Below, in pieces: positions 15,655-22,278 of a stretch of 64,000 bases of DNA (positions are counted from its first letter, which is position 1; the number at the start of each line of letters is the position of its first letter). A program made the position numbers and the translations under genes. The notes under the pieces were generated by a model. That model saw nothing but the letters and a program-made list of their open reading frames with translations. It was not told the origin of the DNA and searched no databases. The stretch lies in contig NZ_JAERQZ010000001.1 in assembly GCF_016735515.1 (NCBI RefSeq), forward strand, positions 682,001 to 746,000, given 5' to 3'. The DNA is from Piscinibacter sp. HJYY11 (GTDB taxonomy: Bacteria; Pseudomonadota; Gammaproteobacteria; Burkholderiales; Burkholderiaceae_C).

Positions 15655-16473
15655 TCAGGTGGAGTGGCGTGCCGGTTGCGGCGATACCGGTGAGCCGGGC
15701 GTGGTCTTGAAGAGCCACTTGCCCGCGCCCTGCGGCTCGAACGGCCGCCACTGCCCCGGCGTCTGCGCCAGGCGGTCGGCCACCACGTAGAGCGCGAGCG
15801 GGTTCATGCCCAGGCCGAAGTGGCTGGCGTGGATGCCGATGTTCTCGGTCAGCGGCGAGGCTTCGTTCAGGCTGCAGCGCCACGAGACCACGCCATCGGT
15901 GCGCGAATAGACCGAGGTCGTGGGCACCGGCGGCGCCTGGCGCACGCGGTCGATCAGCGGGTCGGCCTCGCTCAGCGTGTGGCCGCTGAGGAATTCATAC
16001 AGGCGCCACGCGTTGTTGGCCCGCGGGTGGCCGCTGAAGGGCGTGCCGAGGGTGATGACGCAGCGCGTGTGCTGGGGCACTTCCTTCGCGATCTCGCGGG
16101 CATAGATGCCGCCCAGGCTCCAGCCGACCAGGCTCACCGCTTCGCCATGCTTTTGCGCCAGCATCTCGGCGCGTTCGCGGCAGCGCTGCAGCACGCCTTC
16201 GCGCGGGCCGAGGTTGAAGCCCTGCTCCCATTCGTACGGTGTGTAGCCGCGCGAGCGGAGGAAGGTGCGCAGCGGCAAGGTGGTGATGTCGGGGGCGCTG
16301 AGGCCGGGGAAGACCAGCACGGGGTGCCCGTCGCCGGCCGGCAGGCGGCTGTAGAGCGGCGCGGCGGCAATGCTCGCGGCCAGCTCCCACGGCGCCCGCC
16401 CCTCCATCAGCAACAGCAAGGCACTGGGGGCCTTGGGATCGGTCGGTTGGTCGGCAGGCAAGTCGGAAGGCAT
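15655..16473 (-). CDS. Alpha/beta hydrolase, esterase/lipase-like
   Basis: A 272-residue protein with the nucleophile elbow GWSLGG (Ser119) and an oxyanion segment VLVFPGLSA. SYTDGVV-like residues (SRTDGVVSW) supply a probable acidic residue, and IHASHFGLGMNP a probable catalytic His. No signal peptide is evident from the chosen ATG at 16473, although hydrophobic residues 30-40 are present. Substrate is unknown. It is upstream of fumC on the same strand and divergent from the TonB receptor gene. Confidence 0.75.
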   Translation of the reverse strand: MPSDLPADQPTDPKAPSALLLLMEGRAPWELAASIAAAPLYSRLPAGDGHPVLVFPGLSAPDITTLPLRTFLRSRGYTPYEWEQGFNLGPREGVLQRCRERAEMLAQKHGEAVSLVGWSLGGIYAREIAKEVPQHTRCVITLGTPFSGHPRANNAWRLYEFLSGHTLSEADPLIDRVRQAPPVPTTSVYSRTDGVVSWRCSLNEASPLTENIGIHASHFGLGMNPLALYVVADRLAQTPGQWRPFEPQGAGKWLFKTTPGSPVSPQPARHST

Positions 16474-16673
16474 GGCGTGCAAGAGGCGCAAGCAGCGTGG
16501 GCAACGAACCGATGGTACCCATGACTTATGCACGATCCCTGGGGCATTCGCTCTAGCAGCGGCCCGGGTTTGGCCCCAGGGCGTCAAGTGCGACGAGGGG
16601 CTGCCGATACCGACACATCGTTGTCCCTTTCCAGCGCCCGCTCTTGGGGCCACGCGTTCAGGCGCGCCCACAC
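16474..16673. other. Divergent intergenic region with 9-bp inverted repeat
   Basis: The 200-nt gap between the hydrolase gene and the TonB receptor gene holds CCCTGGGGC at 16537-16545 and its exact complement GCCCCAGGG at 16573-16581, spaced by 27 nt. It could be a leader stem-loop of the receptor mRNA or an operator. I looked for cobalamin and cyclic-di-GMP riboswitch core motifs and saw none. Confidence 0.4.
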
Positions 16674-18680
16674 ATGCAGTCTTCAGGCCCCTCCTTCGCC
16701 GGCAAGCGACAGTTGCTTGCCGCCGCTCTTGCCACGTCCGTTGCCGTTGCCCTTGCGGCCTTCCCGAGCCCCGGCCATGCCGCAGGCAGCGACGAGCCCT
16801 CGCGTCCGCCTTCGGCCAAGGTCGACGCGCTGGCGGCCCTGCCGCTCGACACCCTCCTCGACATGGAGGTCACCGGCGCTTCGCGCTTCGCACAACGGCG
16901 CAGCCAGAGCGCGTCATCCGTCACGGTCATCAGCGCGGCCGAGATCCGCGCCTTCGGCTGGCGCACACTCGCCGACGCGCTCACCTCGGTGAAGGGCCTG
17001 CAGGTCGCCAACGACCACACCTACTCCTACCTGGGCGTGCGGGGTTTCTTCGCGCAGGGCGACTACAACAGCCGTGTGCTGCTGCTGATCGACGGCAACC
17101 GCATCAACGAGAACGTCTATGACATGGCGTTCCTCGGCACCGATTTTCCGCTCGACATCGAGCTGGTCGACCGCATCGAGTTCATCCCCGGCCAGGGCTC
17201 GGCAATCTATGGCGCCAACGCGCTCTTCGCGGTGGTCAACGTGATCACGCGCGAGTCCGGTCGCGACGGGCTGGAGGGCAGCCTTTCCACCGGCACCGGC
17301 CACCACCACATCGTGCGGGTGGGCGGCACGAAGCGCCTGGAGAACGGCGCCTCGATCTTCGCCTCGGCGTCCCGCACCCGTGCCCGCGGCCCCGAGATCT
17401 ACCTGGCCGAGTACGACAACCCGCCTGCCACCGATGGCCGCGCGAACAACACCTACGAGCAGCGCAAGAGCCTCTACCTGCGCGCCGAGCAAGGGCCCTG
17501 GCGCGCCTCGCTCGTGCATGCCGAGCGCTTGAAAGGTGCCGCGACCTACATCGACTTTGCCTTCAACGACCCGCGCAGCTACTACCACGACACCGAGACG
17601 CTGGTCGACCTGGCGTGGGAGCGCGAGCTCGCCGAGAAGACCCGTGCCCAGCTGAGGGGGTTTGCCGGCCGCTACAGCTTCGACGGCGAATACGCCCTCA
17701 GCTCCACGCCGGTGATCAACCGCGAGGAGGCCCTCGGCCAGTGGTGGGGCGTCGACGCCCGGCTGCTGTCGACCCGCTGGAGCGGCCACATGCTCGTGGC
17801 CGGGGTCGAGTTCCAGAAAGCGCCGCGCCAGAACATCAAGAGCTTCGACCTCGATGCGGCGCAGACGACCTACTGGGACGTGCAGACCCGCTCGACCCGG
17901 GTCTCCGTCTACGCCGAAGACCAGGCGAGCCTTTCGGACCGGGTGACGCTCACGCTGGGCGGACGCTACGACCACATGAGCAACGGCCCGAGCGCGTGGA
18001 ACCCCCGCCTCGCGCTCAACTGGAAACCCAACGACCAGCTCGTCGCCAAGTTCATCCACGGCAGTGCCTACCGCCTGCCCAACCGCAGCGACCTCGTCTA
18101 CAGCGACGGCAGCCTGCACAGCGAGAAGGTCAGAGGCAACGAGCTCGCGCTCGAGTGGCAGCCCGGCAACCGGCGCCGCTTCAGCCTATCGTGGTACCAC
18201 AACGCGGCGCGCCACCTGGTGGCCGGCAGCATCGATCCGTCGACGCTGCTTTGGGTCAACCGCAACGTCGGCCGCCTGACCGCTGAAGGCGTGGAGCTGG
18301 AGGCCGAGCAGCGCTTCGCCTCGGGCGCCCTGCTTCGCGCGAACGCGACCTTCCAGCACGCGCACGACACCGGCGAGCTGCCCATCGCGCAATACGCGGC
18401 GCGCCAGATCGGCAACGTGCTGGTCGCCCTGCCACTGGATGAGCGCTGGACGCTCGGCATGGACCTCAACGCCGCGTCGCGCCGCGGCCAGGCAGCAGGC
18501 TACGGCGTCTTCAACCTGACGCTGTCGCAGTCGATCGATGCACGTGGGGCGAGCCTGGCCTTCGGCATCCGCGACGTGTTCGATCGCCGGCCCGACGATC
18601 CGGGCAACGACCCCACCCTGCAGCCGCGCATCGCGCAACTCGGCCGCACCTGGACGGCGCGGCTGGACTTCCGCTTCTGA
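16674..18680 (+). CDS. TonB-dependent outer-membrane receptor
   Basis: A 668-residue outer-membrane protein. It has a signal peptide (about 1-36, ending GHAAGS), a plug domain (about 55-190; SASSVTVISAAEIRAFGWRT, LLLIDGNRINENVYD, IEFIPGQGSAIYGANALFAV) and a 22-strand type barrel ending in TWTARLDFRF. At 668 residues it is at the small end of the family, closer to vitamin B12/colicin-type receptors. The ligand is unknown. It starts an operon: the yfiR-like gene begins 5 nt after the stop, so the receptor may feed a signal to the cyclic-di-GMP enzyme downstream rather than only import nutrients. Confidence 0.88.
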   Translation: MQSSGPSFAGKRQLLAAALATSVAVALAAFPSPGHAAGSDEPSRPPSAKVDALAALPLDTLLDMEVTGASRFAQRRSQSASSVTVISAAEIRAFGWRTLADALTSVKGLQVANDHTYSYLGVRGFFAQGDYNSRVLLLIDGNRINENVYDMAFLGTDFPLDIELVDRIEFIPGQGSAIYGANALFAVVNVITRESGRDGLEGSLSTGTGHHHIVRVGGTKRLENGASIFASASRTRARGPEIYLAEYDNPPATDGRANNTYEQRKSLYLRAEQGPWRASLVHAERLKGAATYIDFAFNDPRSYYHDTETLVDLAWERELAEKTRAQLRGFAGRYSFDGEYALSSTPVINREEALGQWWGVDARLLSTRWSGHMLVAGVEFQKAPRQNIKSFDLDAAQTTYWDVQTRSTRVSVYAEDQASLSDRVTLTLGGRYDHMSNGPSAWNPRLALNWKPNDQLVAKFIHGSAYRLPNRSDLVYSDGSLHSEKVRGNELALEWQPGNRRRFSLSWYHNAARHLVAGSIDPSTLLWVNRNVGRLTAEGVELEAEQRFASGALLRANATFQHAHDTGELPIAQYAARQIGNVLVALPLDERWTLGMDLNAASRRGQAAGYGVFNLTLSQSIDARGASLAFGIRDVFDRRPDDPGNDPTLQPRIAQLGRTWTARLDFRF

Positions 18681-18685
18681 CGAGC

Positions 18686-19231
18686 ATGCGCCGCCTCCCT
18701 GGGTTCTCGCAATGGCCGTGCCGATGGGCGCTGCGGTGGGCGTTCGCCCTGCCGCTGCTCGCGCCCGGCCAGGCCGCGCATGCGGTGGACGCACCGGAGC
18801 TGAAGGTCGCGATCGTCTACAACATCCTGCAGTTCGTCGAATGGCCTGCCGATGTGGACGGGTCGCGTCTCACGCTGTGCGTCGACACGGCCGGCATGCT
18901 GGGCGGCTATTTCAAGGCGCTCGCCGGCCGCCCGGTCAACAAGCGGCAGCTCGAGGTCGCCGAGATGGGCGAAGGCTTCGACAGCTGGAAGCAGTGCCAG
19001 GCCGTGTTCCTCGACTCCGGCAGCCGCCGCACGGCCGGCTTTGCCGCCCGCCTGCCGCGCACCCTGCCCGTCCTCGTGCTGGGCGACCACGCCGACGGCC
19101 AGGGCCTCACCGTGCACCTCATCGAAAGCGCCGGCCGCATCGGCTTCAACGTCGACCTCGCCGCCGCCCGCCACGCCCGACTGCAGATCAGCTCGCGGCT
19201 GCTGCGGCTGGCCAAGAAAGTCACCGAATGA
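18686..19231 (+). CDS. YfiR-like periplasmic regulator (DUF4154)
   Basis: A 181-residue exported protein with a signal peptide (about 1-33). ELKVAIVYNILQFVEWP matches the opening strand-helix of the YfiR/DUF4154 fold. In Pseudomonas, YfiR binds the periplasmic domain of the diguanylate cyclase YfiN and represses it. Cysteines 65 and 104 are 39 residues apart, the same spacing as the C71-C110 disulfide I recall in Pseudomonas YfiR; the second disulfide is missing. The stop overlaps the GGDEF/EAL gene by 4 nt, so the two products are probably made together. Confidence 0.85.
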   Translation: MRRLPGFSQWPCRWALRWAFALPLLAPGQAAHAVDAPELKVAIVYNILQFVEWPADVDGSRLTLCVDTAGMLGGYFKALAGRPVNKRQLEVAEMGEGFDSWKQCQAVFLDSGSRRTAGFAARLPRTLPVLVLGDHADGQGLTVHLIESAGRIGFNVDLAAARHARLQISSRLLRLAKKVTE

Positions 19232-21183
19232 CCCGACGCCTCTTCGGAAGCTCAACGCCCGCCGCGGCACCGACCCAGGTGCTCGGCCTGCCGCACCAGC
19301 GGCTGGCGCACCGCCTCACGCGCGCGGCCGTCGTGGCAGCCGGCCTCGCGCTCGTCTCGGCGGGCGTGGCGCTGAATGTCTTCCTCTATTTCTCCGCGCG
19401 CTCGGCCATCCTCGACGACATGATGGTCCAGGCGCGTGCGGTGGCCGACAACAGCGCCCCGGCGGTGCTGTTCGACGACAACACGGCAGCCACCGACACG
19501 CTCGCCACGTTGACCTCGCTGCGCAGCGTGACCTCGGCCTATCTCTTCGACGAGCACGGCGAGCTGATCGCCTTCTACCGCCCCAAGCTCGGAGGTGGAG
19601 AAGTCGACCCGCCGCTGTCGGTGCACATTGCGGCGCGCACCACCGGGTCGCGCGTGACGGGGCGCCACATCTACGTCACGCAGCCGGTGCTTCACCAAGG
19701 CAAGCTCATCGGCCGCCTGGCGATGGCCGTCAGCCTGCGCACGCTGCACCAGCGCACGCTTGCCTTCGCCGGTGTGACCGCGCTGTCCACGCTCGGGGCC
19801 CTGTGCCTGGCCTACCTCTTCGCGCTCGGCGTGCGCCGCGACATCCACCGCACAGAAGCACGCCTGGACGAGCTCGCCTACGTTGACGCGGTGACCGGCC
19901 TCTACAACCGCCACGCCGCGGGCGAGCACATGCGCGAGCTGGTGTCGCGCCGGCAGCCCTTCGGCGTGATGATGCTCGACCTCGACGACTTCAAGCACGT
20001 CAACGACACGCTCGGCCATGCGAGCGGCGACCTGCTGCTGCGCACGATCGCCGATCGGCTGCGCAAGAGCTTCGAGGGGCGCGGGCAGGTGTTCCGCCTG
20101 GGCGGCGACGAGTTCATGAGCATCTTCGCGCTGCCGGCCGACGAGAGTGGGCTCGACCGCATCGGACAGGAGTCGATCCGCGTGCTGCGCGAGCCGGTGC
20201 GGCTGGGCGCCGACGAGCTCTTCGTGCGAGGCTCCGCCGGCATGTCGTCGTTCCCGTCCGACGGAGCCGACTGGAGCGAGCTGCTGCGCAGCGCCGATGC
20301 CGCGATGTATGCCGCCAAGGCCTCGGGCAAGAACGTCTACGCGATCTTCAAGGCGGAGATGCTGCACCGCTCGCAATTGCGGCTCACGCTCGACAGCGAA
20401 CTGCGCCACGCGATCGCGCGCGGCGAGCTACGCCTGTACTACCAGCCGGTGGTGGCGCTCGACAACGGGAAGATCCTCGGCGCCGAGGCCCTGGTGCGCT
20501 GGGAGCACCCCAAGCGCGGCCTGATCGGCCCGGCGGATTTCATCGCCGCCGCCGAAGAGAGCGGCCTCGTGGTCGAGCTCGGCCAGTGGGTGCTGGCCGA
20601 AGCCGCCCGCCAGGTGGCGCAGTGGCACGCTGAGGGACACGAGAACTTCTACGTCGCGGTGAACGTCTCGGGCCGTCAGATCAAGCGCGGCATCCTGCAG
20701 CGCCAGGTGCGGCATGCCCTGGAGCAGAGCGGCGCCGAGCCCTCGTGGCTGGAGATCGAGATCACCGAGCACTCGCTGGTCGAGGACCTGCAGGCCAATC
20801 TTGACTCGCTCGCGAGCCTGCGCGAGATGGGCATGCGCATGGCGATCGACGATTTCGGCACGGGGCTGTCGTCGCTGTCGTACCTGAAGCGCCTGCCGCT
20901 CAACAAGCTGAAGATCGACCGCAGCTTCGTGCGCGAGCTGCCAGAGCAGCGCGACGACGTGGCCATCGCCACCGCGGTGATCTCGATGGCGCGGGCGCTC
21001 GGCCTGATGGTGGTCGCCGAAGGGGTGGAGACGGTGGAACAGCGCGACGCGCTGCTCAGCATGGGCTGCGACTATGCGCAGGGCTATCTCTTCAGCCGGC
21101 CGGTGCCCGCAAGCGAGATGCAGCGCTTGCTGCAGGAGGAGCGCGAAGCAGTGCTCCGGAGCGCGGCGCCCGCGCCGGTCTGA
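19228..21183 (+). CDS. Membrane CHASE8-GGDEF-EAL protein, cyclic-di-GMP turnover
   Basis: A 651-residue inner-membrane protein. Helices at about 33-55 and 179-200 flank a periplasmic CHASE8 domain (ARAVADNSAPAVLFDDNTAA). The GGDEF domain has DLDDFKHVND and GGDEF at 292-296, so cyclase activity is expected, but the usual RxxD inhibitory site is absent. The EAL domain has EAL at 420-422, NVSGRQ, EITEH, DDFGTG, LKIDRSF and AEGVE, all apparently intact, so phosphodiesterase activity is also possible. YfiR, encoded just upstream, is the likely repressor acting on CHASE8. The ATG at 19228 is supported by the 4-nt overlap. Confidence 0.9.
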   Translation: MTRRLFGSSTPAAAPTQVLGLPHQRLAHRLTRAAVVAAGLALVSAGVALNVFLYFSARSAILDDMMVQARAVADNSAPAVLFDDNTAATDTLATLTSLRSVTSAYLFDEHGELIAFYRPKLGGGEVDPPLSVHIAARTTGSRVTGRHIYVTQPVLHQGKLIGRLAMAVSLRTLHQRTLAFAGVTALSTLGALCLAYLFALGVRRDIHRTEARLDELAYVDAVTGLYNRHAAGEHMRELVSRRQPFGVMMLDLDDFKHVNDTLGHASGDLLLRTIADRLRKSFEGRGQVFRLGGDEFMSIFALPADESGLDRIGQESIRVLREPVRLGADELFVRGSAGMSSFPSDGADWSELLRSADAAMYAAKASGKNVYAIFKAEMLHRSQLRLTLDSELRHAIARGELRLYYQPVVALDNGKILGAEALVRWEHPKRGLIGPADFIAAAEESGLVVELGQWVLAEAARQVAQWHAEGHENFYVAVNVSGRQIKRGILQRQVRHALEQSGAEPSWLEIEITEHSLVEDLQANLDSLASLREMGMRMAIDDFGTGLSSLSYLKRLPLNKLKIDRSFVRELPEQRDDVAIATAVISMARALGLMVVAEGVETVEQRDALLSMGCDYAQGYLFSRPVPASEMQRLLQEEREAVLRSAAPAPV

Positions 21184-21186
21184 CGA

Positions 21187-22278
21187 TCAGGCGAGCCCGC
21201 GCAGCGGGTGTGCGTGTGCCGGCCAGGGGCTCTCGAAGAAGGGGTCAACCAAGGCCGGCGTCACCTCGTCGATCGTGGCGGGCTGCCAGCGCGGCTGGTG
21301 GTCCTTGTCGACCGCCAGCGCGCGGATCCCTTCCACCGTTTCGCTGGCGGCACCCGGGCGCAGGTGGAAGCAACGGCGCACCAGGCCACGCTCCATGCGC
21401 AGCTCGTCGGCCAGCGACATCGCGCGGGCCCGGCGCACCTGCTCGAGCGTGACCGCCATCATCAGCGGCGAGCGCTGGCGCAGGGCCTTCAGCGTGTCAG
21501 CCGCCCACGGGTTGCCATCGGCTGCTAGCGAAGCGGCGATGTCGGCCATCGACGCCGCGGCAAAGTGGCGGTCGATCTCGGCGCGGTGCGGCGTGAGCGG
21601 CGCATCGCCCACGGCCTGCGACCTTGCTCGCACCACGGCCAGCGCCTGCTCGCTGTTGTCGAGGGGCTGGTCGGCGAGCGCCTCGGCCAGCACCGGCAGC
21701 TCGGCCGAAGGCATGAACACATCGGCGAGGCCGACGGCGATGGCATCGGCCGCACCCAGCGCCTGCCCGGTGAGCGCGAGGTACTCGCCGACCCGGCCCG
21801 GGCAGCGGCCCAGGAACCAGCCACCGCCCACGTCGGGAAACAGGCCGATGTGGGTCTCGGGCATGGCGAGCTTGCTGTGCTCGGTCGCCACCCGGAGGCG
21901 GCAGCCTTGCGCGAGGCCCATGCCACCGCCCATGGTGATGCCGTCCATCAAGGCGATGGTCGCCTTGCCGTAGGTGTGGATGAGGTGGTTGAGGCTGTAT
22001 TCCTCGGTGAAGAAGTCTTCCAGCGTCGGATCGCCGGCCAACGCGGCCTGGTGGAAAAAGCGGATGTCGCCGCCCGCGCAGAAGGCCGGCGCCTTGCCTT
22101 CGCGGCCCGCGCCGCGCAGCAGCACCGCACTCACCTGGTCGTCATGGCGCCACCGCTGCAGGGCCGCGGTGATCTGGCGGATCATCGAGAGCGACAGCGC
22201 ATTCAGGGCCGAGGGCCGGTTCAGCGTGATCACGCCGAGTTGGCCACGCACTTCGGTCAGGACGGTGTTGTCGCTCAT
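21187..22278 (-). CDS. 3-hydroxyisobutyryl-CoA hydrolase-like enoyl-CoA hydratase family protein
   Basis: A 363-residue crotonase-fold protein. FCAGGDIRFFHQAA, MDGITMGGGMGLAQGCRLRV and PETHIGLFPDVGGGWFL are typical of the 3-hydroxyisobutyryl-CoA hydrolase branch (valine degradation), which is longer than standard hydratases. The ATG at 22278 has AGGGAAA upstream and overlaps the preceding DMT gene by 4 nt. No other valine-pathway gene is adjacent, so the physiological substrate is not certain. Confidence 0.82.
   Translation of the reverse strand: MSDNTVLTEVRGQLGVITLNRPSALNALSLSMIRQITAALQRWRHDDQVSAVLLRGAGREGKAPAFCAGGDIRFFHQAALAGDPTLEDFFTEEYSLNHLIHTYGKATIALMDGITMGGGMGLAQGCRLRVATEHSKLAMPETHIGLFPDVGGGWFLGRCPGRVGEYLALTGQALGAADAIAVGLADVFMPSAELPVLAEALADQPLDNSEQALAVVRARSQAVGDAPLTPHRAEIDRHFAAASMADIAASLAADGNPWAADTLKALRQRSPLMMAVTLEQVRRARAMSLADELRMERGLVRRCFHLRPGAASETVEGIRALAVDKDHQPRWQPATIDEVTPALVDPFFESPWPAHAHPLRGLA

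Follow-up and report, generated by a model that had tools for sequence, protein, structure and literature searches.

Inward signaling by a TonB-dependent receptor is known from the FecA-FecR-FecI surface-signaling system, and YfiN has an output of GGDEF only. To our knowledge, the outside input to YfiR-CHASE8 systems is an open question. In YfiBNR, according to PMC4655355, YfiB sequesters the repressor YfiR at the outer membrane and thereby relieves repression, and one region of YfiR is suggested to serve both YfiB and YfiN; PMC8294551 describes a YfiBNR-like operon that includes a CHASE8-GGDEF enzyme. The DNA analyzed here, a 64,000-nucleotide stretch of Piscinibacter sp. HJYY11 (contig NZ_JAERQZ010000001.1; the window), encodes a triad of a TonB-dependent receptor, a YfiR-like periplasmic protein, and a CHASE8-GGDEF-EAL membrane enzyme. 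This receptor-YfiR-CHASE8 triad is real and conserved as a unit, and it probably works as a sensor relay. With slightly more belief than doubt, we read it as an outer-membrane ligand sensor in which a receptor segment ahead of the plug would dock YfiR and so control the enzyme, giving a self-contained surface-signaling relay.

Conservation of the Receptor-YfiR-CHASE8 Layout

In the HJYY11 genome, each of the four DUF4154 (YfiR-like) genes has a same-strand CHASE8 gene directly after it, and three of the four pairs have an adjoining receptor gene, two upstream and one downstream. Locus L005 has the order receptor, YfiR, and CHASE8 kinase with receiver domain, and L007 (8573-12001) has the order YfiR, CHASE8 kinase, and receptor, followed by a further sensor kinase. 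Of 150 genomes sampled from the order, 31 carried DUF4154 (53 matches), and the 49 matches outside HJYY11 were read, with an upstream receptor defined as lying on the same strand within 700 base pairs (bp) and a downstream receptor as lying within 4 kb. A receptor was upstream at 35 of these 49 loci, a count that includes L144, where the receptor is split over two open frames, and L148, where it is a fragment; at two more loci it was downstream, and CHASE8 lay downstream of DUF4154 at 40. The output associated with an upstream receptor was a kinase (21 loci) or GGDEF-EAL (six loci); two further loci had CHASE8 without an output domain in frame, and no CHASE8 was found at six. Domain calls in the locus surveys rest on profiles grown from the HJYY11 proteins and the loci themselves, and OmpA was sought by motif pattern only.

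YfiBNR-like loci, with a GGDEF-only protein, an OmpA-type lipoprotein, and no receptor, made up five of the 49 (L152, L155, L162, L166, and L167). A receptor beside YfiR is thus the commoner arrangement in the order sample (35 versus 5 of 49), and the view of YfiB as the usual third partner, taken in a preliminary description of this DNA, does not hold there. GGDEF occurred without EAL in all five YfiB-like loci, and EAL was present in all six receptor-linked CHASE8-GGDEF enzymes of the order sample.

A further 80 named loci were found through a pattern from window relatives and are hence not an unbiased sample. A receptor was upstream at 61 of the 75 loci with at least 800 bp of upstream sequence, and CHASE8 was downstream at 72 of the 79 with room for it. 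Receptor-linked loci included members from Proteobacteria of several classes, Nitrospirae, Acidobacteria, Planctomycetes, Opitutia, Gemmatimonadetes, Ignavibacteria, and Fulvivirga. Recurrence of the order receptor-YfiR-CHASE8 across several phyla argues against chance, and the order sample and the named loci together indicate a widespread layout with exchangeable output.

Two loci of unusual structure were seen. In L169 (G015:C1, about 2027069), whose genome has seven DUF4154 matches, DUF4154 and a histidine kinase share one open frame, apparently as a natural fusion. In the receptor-linked locus L041, the EAL part lies in a different frame from the GGDEF part. No receptor-YfiR fusion was found by Pfam among the 120 of 516 matching receptor homologues listed, part of the candidates having been scored.

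A Receptor Segment Matched to the Adjoining Adaptor

The window receptor matched the Pfam Plug (60.7 bits; cutoff, 23.9) and TonB barrel (116.9 bits; cutoff, 27) models, with no STN domain match at an E value of 0.001, and the closest structural matches of its model were BtuB. Before the plug, YfiR-linked receptors share a conserved segment with a consensus of about L-S-L-E-E-L...E-V-T-S, in which L61 is invariant and L58 at least 90% conserved (alignment A2, 33 rows, window numbering). AlphaFold places low-confidence helices at residues 47 to 55 and 58 to 62. Residues 6 and 7 of BtuB, whose TonB box we take to be residues 6 to 12, align structurally at model residues 63 and 64, and the segment would therefore extend into the TonB-box region. 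By eye, the segment is present in all three YfiR-linked receptors of the HJYY11 genome and in none of its 12 unlinked receptors. These 15 Plug proteins also separate by profile score (605 to 689 bits for the three beside YfiR and at most 175 for the other twelve), with a profile seeded with the three YfiR-linked receptors themselves.

Among related receptors that lack the segment, many have an ABC_sub_bind protein (PF04392) encoded next and, after it, a GGDEF-EAL protein or kinase of sCache/CHASE8-like type. Loci of this parallel layout, with GGDEF(-EAL) or kinase output, are L217 to L230, L232 to L236, L240, L201, and L209 to L212. The pre-plug segments of ABC_sub_bind-linked receptors differ from that of YfiR-linked ones and, judged by eye, fall into at least three kinds.

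The relation between segment and adaptor was surveyed with a stand-in for the segment, a match to the A2 receptor profile starting at position 12 or earlier, ignoring strand. With at most eight candidates scored per genome, the matches listed for the order comprised at least 120 rows in 59 of the 150 genomes, of which 119 were used (the C-terminal piece of the L144 receptor was omitted). Among them, 40 of 49 early-start receptors were within 2.5 kb of YfiR and one was within 5 kb, while one was beside ABC_sub_bind and seven were beside neither. The 70 late-start receptors comprised 28 within 2.5 kb of ABC_sub_bind and 42 beside neither; none was assigned YfiR, and one lay within 5 kb of a neighbor's YfiR. 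The stand-in admits false positives, as three of the seven early-start receptors beside neither (L237 to L239) have other N termini, and a profile of the segment was therefore tested.

This profile, a 34-residue stretch, was trained on the named receptors of other loci, 58 of 62 having a usable N terminus (all but L074, L105, L106, and L109), and was applied to 102 usable receptors of 105 (all but L144, L148, and L180). The YfiR-linked test set (n = 40) comprised 36 upstream and three downstream receptors and that of the window. All 38 usable YfiR-linked receptors scored 8.2 to 42.0 bits, all 25 ABC_sub_bind-linked receptors at most 6.1, and the 11 usable of the 12 unlinked HJYY11 receptors at most 2.9. 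Of 28 receptors with neither adaptor nearby ("none"), four that carry the segment by eye scored 6.7 to 38.2 and the others at most 5.5. The area under the receiver operating characteristic curve (AUC) was 0.976 for YfiR-linked receptors versus all others and 1.0 versus ABC_sub_bind-linked receptors. With the threshold set at 2.9 bits, the top score of an unlinked HJYY11 receptor, 8 of 25 ABC_sub_bind-linked and 13 of 28 "none" receptors also passed. Near-copies do not account for the result, since the closest training-test pair was 48.3% identical.

Outside the order, with at most six candidates scored per genome, 113 of the 127 rows listed were used, rows from genomes of the window's own order being set aside. 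Within 2.5 kb, 31 of 63 early-start receptors among these matches had YfiR, four ABC_sub_bind, and 28 neither, compared with 0, 8, and 42 of 50 late-start receptors; within 6 kb, the counts were 43, 4, and 16 versus 1, 14, and 35. Twenty places were read closely, eight ABC_sub_bind-linked and 12 with neither adaptor. The eight, including four seeming exceptions, scored at most 5.9 bits with the segment profile, whereas of the 12, five (L275 to L279) scored at least 7.8 and seven at most 6.7. The position test outside the order, read closely at ABC_sub_bind-linked and "neither" places only, thus appears to agree in direction, more weakly.

In a quick tree built on plug and barrel sequences alone, YfiR-linked receptors occupy several places. 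The label of YfiR plus segment needs nine changes on it, at least seven of them forced by well-supported branches, so the receptor-YfiR pairing is not simply the inheritance of one clade. L201, which is ABC_sub_bind-linked and lacks the segment, falls inside a starred 17-row group holding 15 YfiR-linked receptors, and L209, which is ABC_sub_bind-linked with a degenerate segment, lies beside L161; these positions indicate repeated changes of adaptor, mostly with a change of segment. The match between segment and adaptor may be a new element here, perhaps unexpected to a specialist.

The YfiR-Like Protein

The second protein matched PF13689 (DUF4154) at 101.4 bits (cutoff, 24.9), and a fold search with its predicted model retrieved YfiR in the Protein Data Bank (4zhu_B; template modeling scores, 0.64/0.77). 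Next came 3lkv (Vibrio cholerae; E value, 1.6e-4), Rhodothermus substrate-binding proteins, and 3lft (Streptococcus pneumoniae ATP-binding cassette [ABC] domain; E value, 3.9e-3); we take 3lkv and 3lft to be of the PF04392 type. PMC4655355 compares YfiR itself with an ABC domain from S. pneumoniae and with a protein from V. cholerae.

Cys65 and Cys104, the only cysteines outside the presumed signal peptide, are invariant in alignment A1 (27 rows); in Pseudomonas aeruginosa YfiR, Cys71 and Cys110 occupy the aligned positions. No counterpart of the second disulfide of that protein (Cys145/Cys152) was found in the aligned window protein. YfiR Glu163, which forms a salt bridge to YfiB Arg96 according to PMC4655355, corresponds to Asn155 in an alignment read by hand, and the pocket residues Ala164, Ile169, Val176, Val180, and Leu181 correspond to Val156, Ala161, Ile168, Leu172, and Leu173. 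The aligned residues indicate that the pocket stays apolar while YfiB-specific contacts do not persist. These changes are consistent with binding of another outer-membrane protein at the same surface, without proving it.

The Enzyme

Both active sites of the enzyme look intact, with GGDEF at residues 292 to 296, EAL at 420 to 422, and DDFGTG at 541, and the only RxxD, at 354, is downstream of GGDEF; the preliminary description was thus right that both motifs are intact and that the inhibitory site (I-site) is absent. I-site RxxD was present in 20 of 26 receptor-linked GGDEF enzymes and absent in six, among them the window enzyme and L049, which was so counted because the GGDEF pattern itself was unmatched. 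Being limited to the window copy and a few relatives, I-site loss is not part of what defines the system. EAL scored 266.3 bits with Pfam, and the top NCBIfam scores of the enzyme were phosphodiesterases, all below cutoff (DibA, 472.5 of 980). No HAMP match was found in the window enzyme by Pfam; HAMP was above the cutoff in the L005 kinase and in enzymes L134, L063, and L223; L007 stayed below it, and L042, L051, and L006 gave no match.

Locus Context

The three genes are tightly spaced, as first described, and their domains exceed Pfam cutoffs (Table 1). Five nucleotides separate the receptor and YfiR genes, and the YfiR and enzyme genes overlap by four (ATGA). The triad is bordered on both sides by opposite-strand genes of metabolic look and therefore stands as a separate unit. 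A Pfam scan covered five flanking proteins, an MscS-type channel, a fumarase, an alpha/beta hydrolase, and proteins of the enoyl-CoA hydratase and EamA types; none was OmpA/YfiB-like, in agreement with the reported absence of a YfiB lipoprotein at this locus. A promoter scan of positions 16400 to 21400 gave no sigma-70-type site and two terminator-like sites (1.8 expected) and was uninformative.

Table 1. Positions of the triad genes and their domains in the window
Feature	Position	Strand	Details
TonB-dependent receptor	16674..18680	+	668 residues; ATG start; signal peptide by eye; Plug at residues 77-186, barrel at 261-633
Conserved pre-plug segment, receptor residues 47-70	16812..16883	+	Alignment A2; proposed YfiR-docking element
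YfiR-like periplasmic protein (DUF4154)	18686..19231	+	181 residues; Pfam and predicted-fold match
CHASE8-GGDEF-EAL membrane enzyme	19228..21183	+	651 residues; without I-site, without HAMP match
CHASE8 periplasmic sensor domain, enzyme residues 60-166	19405..19725	+	Pfam, E value 9e-17
GGDEF domain, enzyme residues 217-369	19876..20334	+	Pfam, E value 1e-37
EAL domain, enzyme residues 391-625	20398..21102	+	Pfam, E value 2.8e-79

Proposed Relay and Alternatives

In the favored relay, the receptor would sense an external ligand, and its N-terminal segment, which lies just before the TonB-box region and reaches into it, would dock the YfiR-like protein in a state-dependent manner, the part before the TonB box thus playing the role of YfiB. 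Undocked YfiR would bind the inner-membrane enzyme at its CHASE8 domain and keep the enzyme in check; ligand binding would then change cyclic di-GMP. We infer docking from co-occurrence only, and repression of the CHASE8 protein by YfiR from YfiBNR. A receptor in the position of YfiB fits the comparative data. The ligand sensor suggested in the preliminary description can therefore be retained as a conserved unit with the receptor in place of YfiB, but not as an exception to a YfiB norm. We do not propose a YfiB-like docking helix in the receptor segment, since the N termini of the five YfiB-like lipoproteins have at most a vague helix pattern in common with it.

Several observations weigh against the relay. 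A pair of YfiR and CHASE8 kinase occurs without a receptor at L006 of the HJYY11 genome, and 12 of the 49 order-sample loci had a receptor neither upstream nor downstream. The segment occurs without nearby YfiR in four of the 28 "none" receptors (L194, L197, L206, and L208) and in five of the 12 early-start receptors with neither adaptor outside the order (L275 to L279, the last two on short contigs). The gap in scores is thin (ABC_sub_bind-linked L209 at 6.1 bits, unlinked L208 and L269 at 6.7, and linked L127 at 8.2), and L209 retains the degenerate segment LSLEEQM. Furthermore, YfiR-linked receptors share ancestry, so that the segment might be a subfamily marker and not a docking site for YfiR. 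Of the segment-bearing receptors without YfiR nearby, L206 adjoins a GGDEF-EAL gene and L208 an HD-domain gene.

The genes could instead be coregulated and uncoupled, the receptor importing a nutrient while YfiR-CHASE8 senses another cue (redox or envelope state) in one niche. The loci where YfiR-CHASE8 lacks a same-strand receptor (L006 and the 12 in the order) would suit this, as would the structural likeness of the receptor to BtuB, a B12 importer. However, the five flanking proteins scanned include neither an ABC importer nor another partner for receptor-mediated uptake, and the EamA-type permease two genes away is on the other strand. No riboswitch was found in the window at the Rfam gathering threshold, three tRNAs being the sole matches, and coregulation alone would not be expected to pair a specific segment with YfiR across several lineages of receptors. 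We consider uncoupled genes unlikely.

Alternatively, the wiring might be inverse, with YfiR parked on the resting receptor and freed when ligand and TonB pull the segment, so that ligand would turn the enzyme off. TonB pulls the TonB-box region in known transporters, and the segment extends into that region in the BtuB alignment. Against this, the outer-membrane partner in YfiBNR sequesters YfiR and so relieves repression (PMC4655355). By analogy with YfiB, we lean toward ligand capturing rather than releasing YfiR and think the inverse improbable. It is likewise doubtful that the segment is a TonB-box variant matched to one of several TonB proteins and not to YfiR. The five TonB_C matches of the genome and the overlap of the segment with the TonB-box region favor this reading, but segment type tracks the adjoining adaptor, YfiR versus ABC_sub_bind (AUC, 1.0), as TonB matching would not predict.

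Beyond the favored relay, a more tentative idea, which we hold with more doubt than belief, is that the stretch of TonB receptors leading up to and into the TonB box acts as an exchangeable address tag. The tag would determine which periplasmic adaptor is used (YfiR or ABC_sub_bind), and through the adaptor ligand status would be relayed to CHASE8-type cyclases, phosphodiesterases, or kinases. This would be a general form of TonB-receptor signaling in several phyla, besides FecA-FecR-sigma. If receptors feed YfiR-CHASE8 systems, bacteria could couple biofilm or motility decisions, or kinase pathways, directly to one particular external ligand, and a sequence rule for finding such sensors would follow from the receptor segment.

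Comparison with Known Systems

The open-licence literature yielded nothing on a TonB receptor working with YfiR. The main text of a paper with a passage on CHASE8 (PMC8846402) has 0 occurrences of YfiR and of TonB, and papers in which both words co-occur (PMC8228696, PMC9611778, PMC12485182, and PMC8959810) concern other subjects by title. The window triad is a GGDEF-EAL variant of a layout named by NCBI, with no functional work found in that literature. By their names, the NCBIfam models NF053590, NF053591, and NF053592 (TOL_0244 receptor, TOL_0243 YfiR-like protein, and kinase near a YfiR-like protein) describe the same three-part layout with a kinase in place of the GGDEF-EAL output. The window proteins are far below their cutoffs (125.5 of 645, 68.1 of 125, and 91.6 of 194 bits, respectively), whereas both receptors, of L005 and of L007, exceed them, as does the kinase of L005 but not that of L007 (175.5 of 194).

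Compared with FecA-FecR-FecI, the window is alike in having a TonB receptor that would signal inward and differs in having no STN match and, in the five flanking proteins scanned, neither FecR nor a sigma factor. It shares with YfiBNR of P. aeruginosa and Escherichia coli a YfiR-family protein beside a CHASE8-GGDEF protein, and the YfiR fold. Unlike YfiBNR, it has a receptor instead of YfiB, an EAL domain, no HAMP match, and a YfiR without the Cys145-Cys152 pair and the Glu163 of the YfiB complex; its proteins score below the NCBIfam equivalog cutoffs for YfiR (29.3 of 85 bits) and YfiN (155.2 of 325 bits). The receptor-ABC_sub_bind loci differ from the window in adaptor family and pre-plug segment and resemble it in their related receptors, fold-related periplasmic adaptor, and output classes.

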